From: Tubulinosema ratisbonensis
Lineage: Eukaryota > Microsporidia > Tubulinosematidae
Direction of reading: 5' to 3'
Assembly (NCBI GenBank): GCA_004000155.1
Contig: RCSS01000427.1
Span: 1-18,742, forward strand
Length of the DNA: 18,742 bases
The translations under genes and the position numbers were made by a program. The notes beneath the pieces were generated by a model. That model ran no database searches. It was given only the letters and a program-made list of their open reading frames with translations, and had not been told where the DNA came from. This document shows, one piece after another, positions 5,246-15,373 of the stretch. Numbering within the stretch: position 1 is the first letter of the stretch; every line of letters begins with the position of its first letter.

Positions 5246-7090
5246 ATGTCTTTAATAAAGAGATTAGGTGTTAAAACTATTACATTATGTTTTTTTATTG
5301 GTTTAAATAAAGGCGCTGAAGGAAATTCTAGGGATGTTTGTTCCTTTTCTATGAATGGTAGAGAGGCTGCGATGATAGGTAAAAGTGTTACAATGACTTC
5401 AACACCCGAAGATGATTGTTTGGTATATACTTCTACAGCGCAACATACTTTTCAGATGAAGAGTTTTAGTAAACAACAGGGTGTAAAACCTAAAATCATA
5501 GTAAATCATGAGCCTTTGCATAAACAGCAAACAAATCAAGAAAAACCGACAAGATATTTTAATCCCAATCAATATCAACCTTATTGTCCTTTTGATTTAC
5601 AATGTAGTTATTCTGAGGATTCTAGTATCGATTCGACTAGCTTACCTTTCAATAGTACACATTTTCAATACAGTAAAGATTATTCAAGAGCGCTACAAAG
5701 AGAATCTAGAAAAGATGGAGATAAAAACACTAGAGGGGGTTTTTCAGATAGAATAGGCAACTATGATCAGCTTATCGGGTCACAAAAATTTTCAGGTCCA
5801 TCTTTCAAAAGAAAAGAAGAAATTTCTTATATAGGAACTGAAAATGATTTTCCTGAAAGAATAGGCACTTGGGAGGAATTCGTCAAAACTGCAAGCTCAG
5901 AAAAGCAAAGAAGTTCGTATTTAGAAACTTCATTCCCTTATTATGAAAAGAGCTTAGGGTCCGAAAATCTCGAAACCCCGTCCGTAATGGAAAATGAATT
6001 TTTACAATCAATGAAACAAATTGCAATAAACGAGCCACCTAAACATACAAATTCAATAANAAGTGATTGTAGAGATTTACAAAGACAAAGAGCACAGGAA
6101 ATATTTAAAGAATCATATTCACCTTTTTTATCTAGTTTAGGTGATAGAGTTTGTTTCTCACAAGAGAGTAAAAGTGACAATAGACTTCAATTTTCTATGG
6201 ATGATTCTTATAAACACCCAAGTGGTCTACAATTATTAGAAAATNGATCAAATTTTATAAGAGCAGAAACTTATTCGCATAATAGAACTTATCAGTCAGG
6301 TGATAATGGTAAAGAAGTAGAAGATGCCCAAAGCTATAATGAAGCAAATATGCATATAATTGAATATCACTATGATACAAAACACTTCGGCAATCCAATT
6401 AGAAATTGTCTTGGTATTTGTTCTTTCGAAAAAAATGAAATTAGTTTTTCTTGCATAAAAATTGATATTACTCCAGTACATAATCATATTTTTAAAGCAA
6501 ATCTTGTTAATCATAAAATATTTAAACTTGAAAAGAGACTAAGTGAACATCTTATGATAAGATTAAATAAACGTGCAAAAGAGAAATTACTTAACCATTA
6601 TATAAATCATTTAGTTGAAGATAAACAAAAAAAATCAGAATTATTTAGAACTAACAAGATACTTGAAACAGCATTTAATGAATTAAGTGAATCTAGTGGA
6701 ATAAATAAAATTACTTGTATAACATTTCTTTACTGGATTACATATAATTTTGGAAAAACTGGTTCGTTTAAAAATCAAGATTCTTTAGAAGAAATCAATT
6801 TCTTTTTAGAACCACACAAAAACTATAAAAATGTTAATTTTTATTCATCATTGCTCTGTTCTTTAAAATACTGGAAAATTCAAAATTACCAATTTACAGA
6901 TTTTTATAATACAATTAGAATATTTTTTGATGTTATACTGAGAAATTATATTAAAATGAATAACAACGATGACAACGCTGTGCAAAAACTAATAACAAGC
7001 ATAAGAAATGAATTAAGTAATATGTATAAAATTTTATTAGGAGATAAACATGCTGAAGCAGTTGGTGGAATCTGCATTTCAATTAAATAA
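5246..7090 (+). CDS. Hypothetical protein, 614 aa, possibly secreted
   Basis: I do not recognise a family. The N-terminus (KRLGVK, then TITLCFFIGL, then GAEG) looks like a short signal peptide, suggesting entry to the secretory pathway; this is inference. Residues about 50-360 are polar and low in hydrophobics, rich in Ser, Gln, Asn and Tyr, and contain a short near-repeat: FSDRIGNYDQLI (166-177) and FPERIGTWEEFV (202-213). Residues about 400-614 are more ordered-looking and Lys/Asn/Ile/Phe-rich. No transmembrane segment is obvious after the N-terminus. N calls fall in codons 272 and 334; the second reads NGA, so a T there would be a stop. The start is set by the TTTACCC motif at -11 to -5. 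The stop codon overlaps an AATAAA. Its length is far beyond chance in such AT-rich DNA. It stands alone, with no gene within 3 kb on either side, and may be a lineage-specific secreted or host-interaction protein. Confidence 0.8.
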   Translation: MSLIKRLGVKTITLCFFIGLNKGAEGNSRDVCSFSMNGREAAMIGKSVTMTSTPEDDCLVYTSTAQHTFQMKSFSKQQGVKPKIIVNHEPLHKQQTNQEKPTRYFNPNQYQPYCPFDLQCSYSEDSSIDSTSLPFNSTHFQYSKDYSRALQRESRKDGDKNTRGGFSDRIGNYDQLIGSQKFSGPSFKRKEEISYIGTENDFPERIGTWEEFVKTASSEKQRSSYLETSFPYYEKSLGSENLETPSVMENEFLQSMKQIAINEPPKHTNSIXSDCRDLQRQRAQEIFKESYSPFLSSLGDRVCFSQESKSDNRLQFSMDDSYKHPSGLQLLENXSNFIRAETYSHNRTYQSGDNGKEVEDAQSYNEANMHIIEYHYDTKHFGNPIRNCLGICSFEKNEISFSCIKIDITPVHNHIFKANLVNHKIFKLEKRLSEHLMIRLNKRAKEKLLNHYINHLVEDKQKKSELFRTNKILETAFNELSESSGINKITCITFLYWITYNFGKTGSFKNQDSLEEINFFLEPHKNYKNVNFYSSLLCSLKYWKIQNYQFTDFYNTIRIFFDVILRNYIKMNNNDDNAVQKLITSIRNELSNMYKILLGDKHAEAVGGICISIK

Positions 7091-12611: not shown

Positions 12612-13324
12612 TTAATTAATTACTTCTTCTTTCTTTGGTTTACCAACAACCTTTACTTTAGAAATAAAAACATTTTCTAAAGGAACGATTGACAAACTTT
12701 TCTTTTCAATCTCTTGGGTTACTTTATTACCTTGTAATATATCCATAACTTTAAGTAAATCAAGGTCACTAAAATGATTCTCAATGATATTAAAAATAAC
12801 CTTCCTTACTCTTTTTACGTTTGCTCTCTTGGCGTAACATGTTTTCTTAGTTTGTCCTAATTCTCTCTTAGTAATTCCCATAACAAATATCCTTAAAGTA
12901 TATCCATCCTTGGTAAGAACATCTTGATAAGTTTTGACTAAAGTATGCCATTTTCTGATAATTCCTTTTTTCTTGTCTTTTGTTAAATCCATGCCATTAA
13001 ATTCTGTCTTAGCAACTGAACCATCCACTTGTGAGATGACAAACTTAAACTTTCTAAAAGAGTTTGTCTCGTCGTTTGGGTTTAAGTCACCTTGGCATGC
13101 CTCAAAATTCCTTCCTAACAAGGCTCTGTCTAACAAAGCTTTGGAAGATTGCTTGTTAACAAGGGTTTTGCCTGCATCTGTCTTTATAAATGCACCAGGT
13201 ACTTTTAAGGTGTACCATTCTTTCTTTGCAAAAGTGTCTACTGCTTTCTTCTTTAAACCTTTTTTCATTTGTTTTTTTGTGACTGATTGTACTTTAATTG
13301 CCTAATTAAAATTTTACTTACCAT
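12612..13324 (-). CDS. RPS1: 40S ribosomal protein eS1 (S3Ae), two exons
   Basis: eS1 is a core small-subunit protein near the mRNA exit channel. The main frame (12612-13268) contains family hallmarks in order: KKKAVDTFAKKEWY, GKTLVNKQ, FRKFKF, FNGMDLTKDKK, KWHTLVKTYQDVLTKDGYTLRIFVMGITKR, KTCYAK, and IEKKSLSIVPLENVFISKVKVV. Starting at 13268 would lose the basic N-terminus. The proposed gene is complement(join(12612..13301,13322..13324)): exon 1 is only the ATG, a 20-nt intron follows, and exon 2 adds AIKVQSVTKKQ before the old Met, giving 230 residues that match the usual basic eS1 start. The ATG is preceded by TTTACCC with five bases between. Without splicing, translation from this ATG ends after 19 codons out of frame. 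It diverges from V-ATPase C and converges with the PP1 inhibitor gene. The stop overlaps ATTAAA. Confidence 0.93.
13302..13321 (-). other. Predicted 20-nt spliceosomal intron after the eS1 start codon
   Basis: On the minus strand the sequence after the ATG is GTAAGT, then AAAATT, then TTAATTAG. It has a perfect GTAAGT donor, an A-containing TTTAAT branch-like site immediately before the acceptor, and a TAG 3' end. Removing the 20 bases joins ATG to GCA in the eS1 frame; keeping them shifts frame to a TGA. Microsporidian introns are known to be short, to cluster at the 5' ends of ribosomal protein genes, and to have the branch site next to the 3' splice site. No transcript evidence is available here. 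Confidence 0.8.
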
Positions 13325-13329
13325 TTTAT

Positions 13330-13336
13330 GGGTAAA
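13330..13336 (-). promoter_or_regulatory. Microsporidian CCC start-site motif (TTTACCC) of eS1
   Basis: TTTACCC lies five bases ahead of the proposed eS1 ATG (13322-13324) and not ahead of the internal Met at 13268. It matches the motif before the gene at 5246 and independently supports the intron-containing gene model. Confidence 0.75.
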
Positions 13337-13389
13337 AAAATTTTATAAAAAAATAAAATAAAAATAAAAATAAATTGATATAAAATAAT

Positions 13390-13391
<2 letters not shown>

Positions 13392-13420
<29 letters not shown>

Positions 13421-13470
13421 TAAAAATAAAAATAAAAATAAAAATAAAAATAAAAATAAAAATAAAAATA
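13392..13470. repeat. TAAAAA hexanucleotide microsatellite
   Basis: About 13 near-perfect copies of TAAAAA fill roughly 79 bases of the 279-bp space between the divergent starts of eS1 and V-ATPase C. Less regular AATAAA/AAAATA runs flank it from about 13345. Such A-tracts tend to exclude nucleosomes, so it could serve a shared bidirectional promoter; this is inference. Copy number may be uncertain in the assembly. Confidence 0.9.
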
Positions 13471-13603: not shown

Positions 13604-14677
13604 ATGTTAGTAATAACAGGATTACCTGACCAACAATCAAAATTATTACAAAGCCACCAAGAAGAAGTAAAGATCCAAAAACTTGATTTACAATCAATCT
13701 CATGCAATGGCTTAGCATCAATAATCAGTGCATCAGAAAAGCTTTACGAACTAGAAAAAAGATTAAACAACATTATCAATGCAATATACACATTCTTAAA
13801 CGTAAACTATCAGGAAGAAAGTAAAGAACTCTCTAAAGAATTTGATAAACTTTCTTTCGAGAATAATTTTTTTACAAAATTAATACAAAAAAATTTGCCA
13901 CTTAAATCAAAAAGAAAATTATCAGAGAGAAGAATGACAATTGAAGATTATATTTCTAGGACTGAGTCTATTTTTAGAGAAATAGAAAAGAATTATTCTG
14001 AGAAACATTCTGATTTTGTAAAGTATATTAAAAGAAATGTTGTTGAAAAAAGGAAGATAGGAAATGATTTAAAGACAGCTGCTTTGAATAATTTTTGCAA
14101 AGAGGAAAAACATGAATTTCTTCAAATTTTTTATGTGGTACGTAATAAAAAGAACAAAAATCCTATATCCTCTCTTTTTGATAACGAAAAACTGGTTTAC
14201 CACTCAATAAAAATTGTAGCACAAGATGAATCTGACGAGCTAATCTCTTTTTACGGCATGAAAAGTACCGAAGAAAAAGTAAAATTAGATTGTAAGAAAT
14301 ACGATTTTATTTACAAATCCTTTCTTACCGAGGAACAATTTGAGAACATAAAAAAAAATTTGGATGATTTCGAAGAAACAAAAAAAAGTCATTTTATTTT
14401 TTTGAAAGATTCTTTTTTTGAATTGACAGGTTTAATTTGTAATTTTAAATTTAGTAAAGCATATTTGGATAGCATTCTTTCTTATGGATTACCCCCTGAT
14501 TATGTCTTTTATGCTATGAAAAGTAATAAAAATAAGTATCTTAATGAATTTTTGCTTAAGTTTGCCAAAGAAACAGAACATTTGATTGACCAAAAGAAGT
14601 ATGCCGGAAAACTTTATGGAGATTTAGTTGTTGTGAATGTCAGTTTACCATTCTATGAGGAAGAAGAAGATAAATAA
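13604..14677 (+). CDS. VMA5: V-type proton ATPase subunit C, 357 aa
   Basis: Subunit C links the V1 catalytic sector to the stator of the vacuolar proton pump and is the part released when the enzyme disassembles reversibly. The C-terminal half carries the family signature: KKSHFIFLKDSFFELTGL, then KAYLDSILSYGLPPDYVFYA (285-304, with the conserved YGLP) and MKSNKNK, then a hydrophobic end (LVVVNVSLPF) resembling the family C-terminus. Residues about 40-130 are helix-rich, and the centre is charged as in the head domain. The length is slightly below yeast and human (about 380-390). The start is the first ATG of the frame; only CC, not CCC, precedes it. The stop codon lies inside AATAAA. It is divergent from eS1 (279 bp between starts) and convergent with the LC8 gene. 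The residual doubt is the diverged N-terminal half. Confidence 0.87.
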   Translation: MLVITGLPDQQSKLLQSHQEEVKIQKLDLQSISCNGLASIISASEKLYELEKRLNNIINAIYTFLNVNYQEESKELSKEFDKLSFENNFFTKLIQKNLPLKSKRKLSERRMTIEDYISRTESIFREIEKNYSEKHSDFVKYIKRNVVEKRKIGNDLKTAALNNFCKEEKHEFLQIFYVVRNKKNKNPISSLFDNEKLVYHSIKIVAQDESDELISFYGMKSTEEKVKLDCKKYDFIYKSFLTEEQFENIKKNLDDFEETKKSHFIFLKDSFFELTGLICNFKFSKAYLDSILSYGLPPDYVFYAMKSNKNKYLNEFLLKFAKETEHLIDQKKYAGKLYGDLVVVNVSLPFYEEEEDK

Positions 14678-14829: not shown

Positions 14830-14835
14830 TTTATT
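14830..14835 (-). terminator. AATAAA containing the LC8-like gene stop codon
   Basis: On the minus strand the end reads CAA TAA A, so the stop (14833-14831) is again inside AATAAA. The convergent neighbour's signal lies only about 150 bases away, so the two 3' ends may overlap. Confidence 0.5.
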
Positions 14836-15373
14836 GATCATCAGAAATATACGTTTTAAAAATTAATACCATCATATACCCAACCTTAACCTGTACCAAA
14901 GTATCTTCCTCATAGGAACACACCCCACAAAAATGCTCTCCTACAAAGACATTCCACCCTTTCCCAAACTGTTCTTCCATCTTACACTTTAAATACTTAG
15001 GAAACTTAGAAGAATACTTGTCATCAGGATATTTCTTAATCAATTCAATTAAAATATTACAAATATTCTCTGCGGTCTCACTTTCTTCTTTAATGATTGT
15101 TTCTATGGTTAATGATTTATTGACTGATAAATCAGGTGTCTTTAAAACTGTCTCTTTTGATTTGTTTGGTTTTATTTCTTTACTTGGATCTTCTATCACA
15201 AGTTTATTTTCTTCTTCATTTTTTATTTTACTTTCTTCTACTAATTCTTCTTCTAACTCTTTTTCTGTTATTATTTCTTCTTTGGTTAATTCTTTTTCTT
15301 TTAATTCTTCTTCTTTTATTTCATTATTTATATTTTCTTCTATTTCTTTTATACTTTTTTCTTTGTCATCCAT
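14831..15373 (-). CDS. LC8-type dynein light chain domain protein with acidic N-terminal extension, 180 aa
   Basis: Residues about 92-174 match the LC8 (DYNLL) fold: helices containing AENICNILIELIKKY and SKFPKYLKCKMEEQFGKGW, then strands with NVFVGEHFCG, EEDTLVQVKVGYMMVLIFKT. LC8 has the corresponding order W..IVG..FG....HE, then a strand ending in LLFK. LC8 is a dimeric hub that binds short linear motifs and sits in the dynein complex. The first 90 residues are an unusual Glu/Lys-rich, probably helical or disordered extension; canonical LC8 is about 89 residues in total. The start is the ATG at 15373. The frame is open 17 codons further but only from a TTG at 15424, so the upstream part is not used. 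There is no CCC motif. Function of the extension is unknown; a chance fusion or lineage-specific tether are both possible. Confidence 0.78.
   Translation of the reverse strand: MDDKEKSIKEIEENINNEIKEEELKEKELTKEEIITEKELEEELVEESKIKNEEENKLVIEDPSKEIKPNKSKETVLKTPDLSVNKSLTIETIIKEESETAENICNILIELIKKYPDDKYSSKFPKYLKCKMEEQFGKGWNVFVGEHFCGVCSYEEDTLVQVKVGYMMVLIFKTYISDDQ

Follow-up and report, generated by a model that had tools for sequence, protein, structure and literature searches.

A probable 20-nt intron directly after the start codon of the eS1 gene, and a set of 19-20 nt introns, in the microsporidian Tubulinosema ratisbonensis

Positions 13321-13302 of the window, the 18,742-nt stretch of T. ratisbonensis DNA analyzed here, are very probably a genuine 20-nt spliceosomal intron in the gene encoding ribosomal protein eS1, and one of a tight set of 19-20 nt introns in the genome of this microsporidian parasite of fruit flies. 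The features of the eS1 site that stand out from chance are the length of the intron, its place directly after ACCC-ATG and the N-terminus that is encoded when it is removed. Accounts of microsporidian introns usually present them as scarce, short and concentrated in ribosomal-protein genes. T. ratisbonensis instead appears to have about a dozen introns of 19-20 nt; ribosomal genes host only a minority of these, and paralogues differ in whether they carry them. The genome offers a natural test of the shortest donor-to-branch distance, and the shortest first exon, that a reduced spliceosome can handle.

Structure of the eS1 gene and its N-terminus

The eS1 gene is on the minus strand. A CCC-like start signal, TTTACCC (13330-13336), of the type documented in microsporidia (PMC10815200, PMC2803860), is separated by 5 bases, ATAAA when read on the minus strand from 13336, from an ATG (13322-13324) that is by itself the first coding exon. 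The intron, GTAAGTAAAATTTTAATTAG (13302-13321), follows immediately, with the donor GTAAGT (13316-13321) at one end and TAATTAG (13302-13308), containing a branch-point-like A and the acceptor AG, at the other; the branch-point role is assigned by likeness to microsporidian motifs, and the intron also fits the relaxed microsporidian intron expression quoted in the same source (PMC3486916). The second coding exon (12612-13301; 229 codons and a stop codon that ends at 12612) opens GCAATTAAAGTACAATCAGTC and matches PF01015 (Ribosomal_S3Ae, 7.6e-56). When the ATG is joined to GCAATTAAAG, residues 1-12 of eS1 are restored and the protein, MAIKVQSVTKKQMKKGLKKKAVDTFAKKEW..., has 230 amino acids. Unspliced, the frame from the ATG encodes 19 amino acids, and because the TAG that ends the intron is a stop codon in the frame of exon 2, that exon cannot be reached by read-through. 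GT-AG borders, a strict donor and a branch-point-like A near the acceptor are the marks of the microsporidian class; the intron directly follows the start codon of a ribosomal-protein gene (PF01015), its removal restores a conserved open frame and its retention breaks the frame. Among the 562 ATGs on both strands of the window, which has a GC content of 24.0%, this is the only one directly followed by GTAAGT-N0-20-TAATTAG. The original prediction had located the ATG, the 20-nt GTAAGT intron, the in-frame eS1 exon and the upstream TTTACCC correctly, giving no strand, which is minus; its 19-codon dead end upon retention is the 19-residue frame described above, and the internal Met that it named as the rival start, at 13268, is confirmed as the first ATG within exon 2 (13266-13268, minus strand), residue 13 of the joined protein.

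Several other features of the window can be recorded. An array of ~20 tandem copies of AAAAAT (13349-13470) lies in the spacer between eS1 and a divergent gene for V-ATPase subunit C (PF03223, 4.8e-10; 13604-14677, plus strand), and the minus strand nearby (14831-15373) encodes a dynein light chain (PF01221, 1.4e-13) whose N-terminal part is long and charged. Positions 399-1907 contain a retroelement frame that encodes a zinc knuckle and a reverse transcriptase domain, and 5246-7090 a 614-codon open frame without a Pfam match. An Rfam scan of the window gave no match.

The N-terminus encoded by the join is conserved and basic, and resembles that of P. locustae eS1. The eS1 chains of Paranosema locustae (PDB 6zu5), which starts MAKKDQPVTKKSLKKGLKKKATDSFAKKEW, and S. 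lophii (7qca), which starts MAIKADN, can both be aligned with the joined protein from residue 1, and the P. locustae alignment bears out the proposal that the exon supplies a missing basic N-terminus. Of the 11 residues after the Met, 7 are identical in P. locustae; the score of the match is 26, which was reached by 83 of 200,000 shuffles of these residues and by one of the 15,762 stop-free six-frame 11-mers of the window, presumably the eS1 site itself. Compared ungapped with S. lophii, the same 11 residues have 3 identities, a weak match with a score reached by 2,006 of 200,000 shuffles.

The comparison with related eS1 genes that had been suggested as a check was made here at the protein level. 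A protein search gave 41 matches among 378 candidates, and 16 of the 41 were examined. In P0003, P0004, P0005 (Anncaliia algerae) and P0010 the recorded start is the Met that corresponds to eS1 residue 13, as would be expected of ORF calling blind to introns if the intron is common to them. P0007, P0008 and P0011, relatives of the P. locustae type, begin MAKK and are recorded without a gap after Met1, and so the intron need not be common to them. A 5′ intron shared among eS1 relatives would, as judged from these protein starts, fit the first four records. The T. ratisbonensis genome also suggests that some ribosomal-gene start codons in this family are recorded too far downstream. Anncaliia algerae, the nearest relative with a name among the protein-search matches, is cited as intron-free in the source available (PMC8476143). 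One further relative, P0006, carries seven additional residues after Met1 and before AKKEQ, where the intron would be; these could be an intron retained in frame or result from a different start. P0012, recorded as the eS1 of the ant Nylanderia fulva, is 52% identical to T. ratisbonensis eS1 and may be microsporidian contamination of the ant genome.

Introns of 19-20 nt in the surveyed genome

The draft genome of T. ratisbonensis has been reported as 7,555,974 nt in 952 contigs with 23.2% GC (PMC6675976), and the motif survey covered 4,116,903 bases in 236 contigs, ~4.1 of 7.56 Mb. Within this 4.1 Mb, GTAAGT-N0-20-TAATTAG occurs at 20 sites and the reversed-pattern control at 10. An order-1 Markov model fitted to the window predicts ~16 such motifs, and as the 20 observed are near this chance expectation, the motif count alone is no evidence for introns and motif frequency was dropped as evidence. 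The lengths are far from evenly distributed: 13 of the 20 sites are 19-20 nt, for which a uniform null over 13-33 nt gives P about 2e-9. A site was accepted as an intron when one phase had at least 36 open codons to each side of the join, a threshold set after the table of sites had been seen, or when there was homology support. By this rule, 12 of the 20 sites join two coding pieces in frame, and all 12 are 19 or 20 nt although the search pattern allowed 13-33 nt. None of these lengths is divisible by 3 and retention therefore shifts the frame in every case. Because the search itself dictated the letters of the donor and acceptor, the consensus of the accepted introns is not used as evidence; the survey also passes over introns of more than 33 nt and those with different motifs.

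The introns of eS1 (20 nt), eL43 (20 nt) and eL39 (19 nt) are each located directly after ACCC-ATG. A 19-nt intron (C136:15555-15573; L005) is in a non-ribosomal host, an Arv1-like gene (PF04161, 1.8e-14), and seven are in a family of hydrophobic proteins of ~275 residues, with two each in the members on contigs C60 (20 and 19 nt), C95 (20 and 20 nt) and C165 (20 and 20 nt) and one of 20 nt in a second C60 member. The last was accepted on open frames and a resemblance judged by eye, intron 1 of this member falling in a run of N, and a 20-nt intron in an orphan on C231 was accepted on open frames alone. The C95 family protein had no Pfam match in the part scanned.

Sites that were not accepted were also inspected. 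The remaining 8 of the 20 (17, 18, 19, 22, 22, 24, 26 and 33 nt) have neither a two-sided open phase of at least 36 codons nor homology. The sequence ATG-GTAAGT...TTAATTAG that opens eS1, eL43 and eL39 accounts for 3 of 40 ATGGTAAGT sites (37 distinct contexts), and the other 37 were not accepted as introns; four of these, L013, L015, L024 and L047, have longer joins, from 60 to 180 codons, yet were rejected because the downstream frame runs open across the putative acceptor in any case (57-520 codons) and no intron is needed. Both TAATTTAG sites, both TAACTAG sites and all nine GTATGT...TAATTAG sites were rejected on the same ground of open frames and homology, so that these other donor and acceptor variants gave no accepted intron from 13 sites. 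Two CTAATTAG sites belong to the 20 GTAAGT...TAATTAG sites, one accepted and one rejected. Reversed-pattern controls gave 37 sites against 40 observed for ATGGTAAGT, 1 against 2 for CTAATTAG and 6 against 9 for GTATGT; in further motif searches control and observed counts were 5 and 10, 2 and 2, and 6 and 2.

Evidence for intron removal and alternative explanations

The hydrophobic-protein family provides indirect, apparently RNA-derived evidence of splicing, in another gene than eS1. Exon 2 is 269 nt in the C60, C95 and C165 members. In each of the three exons, C95 and C165 differ most often at third positions of codons in the spliced frame (27/10/53, 18/8/37 and 8/8/15 at codon positions one, two and three of exons 1 to 3, respectively), and each of the two introns is identical at 18 of 20 bases, with all four differences in middle bases. 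A protein search with 10 matches in all identified a further copy on contig C184 (C184:5832-6641; L075) that is open for 282 codons with no stop and has 489 consecutive nt identical to spliced C165, lacking exactly both 20-nt introns. This run of identity begins 33 nt ahead of junction 1 and continues for 187 nt beyond junction 2; it stops 63 nt past the stop codon, where it adjoins AATAAA, and neither unspliced junction of the family gene is present in the C184 locus. Exons 2 and 3 of the copy are identical to those of C165 (269/269 and 123/123) and exon 1 is nearly that of C95 (430/435). C184 is a chimera with a 3′ part that looks derived from spliced RNA: either the hybrid assembly took in an RNA-seq contig or a recent cDNA-mediated event produced it, and both origins require splicing at those two sites. 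RNA-seq contigs are reported to have been merged with genomic contigs in the published assembly (PMC6675976), and as the C184 sequence is probably RNA-derived within this hybrid assembly, other contigs may contain similar joins. The spliced eS1 string is absent from the 236 contigs searched. Two diverged paralogues form, with the family, a small series of intron presence and absence: C179 (L080) reads without a gap through junction 1 and lacks intron 1, and C95:13652-13900 (L084) reads without a gap through junction 2 and lacks intron 2. Both could also be read as intron gain elsewhere, and the mixture of intron presence and absence among paralogues is compatible with C184 being an ancestral intronless gene, the other members having gained introns, in which case it would be silent on splicing. 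We regard this as barely credible, given that exons 2 and 3 are identical to C165 while exon 1 is near-identical to C95 and that the identity to C165 ends 63 nt after the stop codon by AATAAA; a recent origin from spliced RNA, whether it took place in the cell or during assembly, accounts for all of these features.

For eS1 itself, the spliceosome, with U6 and Prp8 present, would remove the 20-nt intron from the pre-mRNA in vivo, using a geometry of GUAAGU, ~15 nt to the branch-point-like A, two bases and then AG. The pre-mRNA probably begins a few bases before the ATG, and the whole of exon 1 would then span between a few and about a dozen nt, because the CCC-like signal is 5 nt before the ATG and intron-containing genes of E. 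cuniculi have, as reported, short 5′ UTRs (PMC3629993). Were there no intron, eS1 would start at the internal Met (13268) and lack 12 N-terminal residues, and GTAAGT...TTAATTAG would be a chance product of AT-rich DNA. The 218-residue frame is complete from this Met, close relatives are recorded from the equivalent Met and the genome motif counts are near chance, but codons 2-12 match P. locustae eS1 and are open only up to the last base of the intron, and the same ATG-GTAAGT...TTAATTAG opens eL43 and eL39, which makes a gene without an intron very improbable. Two published precedents also count against splicing at eS1: in the accounts available, six of eight intron-like sequences in Spraguea, those beside the start codon, stayed unspliced (PMC3749934), as did a 27-nt intron predicted in a ribosomal gene of E. 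cuniculi (PMC2803860). By analogy with other microsporidia, splicing of the eS1 intron is likely to be incomplete. Unspliced eS1 RNA would give the 19-residue peptide; a truncated eS1 that starts at the internal Met is a less likely product. It is the dead-end peptide that could let retention gate eS1 output, with the rate of splicing setting eS1 supply. In E. cuniculi splicing is poor at most introns, with 11 of 37 junctions changing from one time point to another, and yeast ribosomal genes autoregulate by splicing, all as given in one report that nevertheless judged low E. cuniculi splicing to be non-regulatory in most cases (PMC3629993); in the available account of H. tvaerminnensis, splicing efficiency is unlinked to length or frame. 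Such a gate would, moreover, be a special case of a real eS1 intron rather than a competing explanation. E. cuniculi commonly retains its introns, and 30 of 37 introns were reported to be less than 50% spliced (PMC3629993), and for this reason the dead-end peptide may reflect plain inefficiency; splicing in H. tvaerminnensis is described as ranging from 7.5 to 92.3% at 17 introns. Deliberate gating of eS1 is possible but unsupported, and we consider it improbable. A genuine intron that is removed, if incompletely, remains by far the best explanation of the eS1 site.

Spliceosome components and relation to known introns

The genome retains parts of a spliceosome. A U6 snRNA was identified by Infernal with 57.9 bits against a gathering threshold of 44 (L050:1501-1598, minus strand; C15:13838-13935), the one match seen in about half of the assembly, together with the U6-binding domain of Prp8 (PF10596, 1.1e-31). 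The original assignment of the eS1 sequence to spliceosomal-type introns of a microsporidian genome, with a branch-point-like TTAAT by the acceptor, is supported. Rfam gave no match to U2 snRNA in the genome and was likewise silent in the control genomes. In the Infernal alignment the U6 has ACUGAG in place of the consensus ACAGAG, with no change of length between the conserved blocks on either side. The ACAGA box has been reported as invariant in 240 species, comprising 230 Saccharomycotina and 10 outgroups, and a uridine at its center would pair with the A at donor position +4 (PMC10581693). The uridine of ACUGAG could pair in this way with the strict GUAAGU donor of T. ratisbonensis; all 12 accepted introns have +4A, although it was imposed by the search, and the nine GTATGT sites, with T at +4, gave no accepted intron. 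The same central A-to-U change in the ACAGA box is described for Cyanidioschyzon merolae (PMC10581693), a red alga, so that its occurrence in a microsporidian is an independent change. C. merolae has no U1, according to the source available (PMC6461891), and U1 has been reported as unidentified in E. cuniculi (PMC3629993), which makes recognition of the donor led by U6, having arisen twice, a testable idea. We suggest, tentatively and as less probable than not, that the Tubulinosema spliceosome might measure a single intron size of 19-20 nt and read the donor with U6 and not U1; as part of the same doubtful proposal, the distance from donor to branch point would be ~15 nt and ACU of U6 would make three Watson-Crick pairs with donor positions +4 to +6 (AGU). 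If true, a reduced spliceosome would have moved to U6-led donor recognition for a second time, independently of the U1-less C. merolae, and the T. ratisbonensis introns also offer a test of whether the U6 change goes with a short donor-to-branch distance. The U6 variant, a side observation here, may perhaps be the better story than the eS1 intron.

The suggestion that 20 nt is at or near the lower limit for spliceosomal introns was overstated, as introns of 15-17 nt have been published: Mikrocytos introns are reported to be 16-17 nt and those of heterotrich ciliates 15-16 nt, with 18-21 nt in chlorarachniophyte nucleomorphs (PMC10245619). The part of that claim that stands is narrower. With introns of 22-76 nt in E. 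cuniculi (PMC3629993), 24-33 nt in O. bayeri (PMC2784321) and a mean of 28 nt in the available account of H. tvaerminnensis, 19-20 nt is provisionally the shortest size when set against the published microsporidian ranges compared, in which the minimum is 22-24 nt.

The closest likeness in structure is to the 5′ ribosomal introns of E. cuniculi, Octosporea bayeri and Nosema ceranae, which likewise have GT-AG borders, a strict donor and a branch point near the acceptor, are beside or inside the start codon and break the frame when retained. E. cuniculi and O. bayeri are reported to have introns in L37a and L39, the orthologues of the eL43 and eL39 hosts (PMC2784321), and eS1 is not named as an intron host in the accounts of such introns available, nor in the main text on E. 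cuniculi. The T. ratisbonensis set is, however, much narrower at 19-20 nt than those of E. cuniculi (22-76 nt) and O. bayeri (24-33 nt), as published. The intron-like sequences of Spraguea lophii share the place by the start codon and the motif, with ribosomal genes among their hosts (PMC3749934), but are described there as unspliced and readable in frame, whereas all 12 T. ratisbonensis lengths shift the frame; the eS1 intron, at 20 nt, does not have the frame-keeping length, free of a disruptive stop, of the Spraguea type. Mikrocytos and nucleomorph introns are also described as having a very narrow size range near 20 nt, in reduced genomes (PMC10245619, PMC6461891), and in the 4.1 Mb surveyed with fixed motifs all 12 accepted T. 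ratisbonensis introns are 19-20 nt. Those systems have, as reported, hundreds of introns in contrast to the 12 accepted here, about a dozen, and nucleomorph introns have no donor motif beyond GU, whereas the T. ratisbonensis search required GTAAGT. With 12 introns and not hundreds, T. ratisbonensis resembles the Mikrocytos and nucleomorph type in intron size only.
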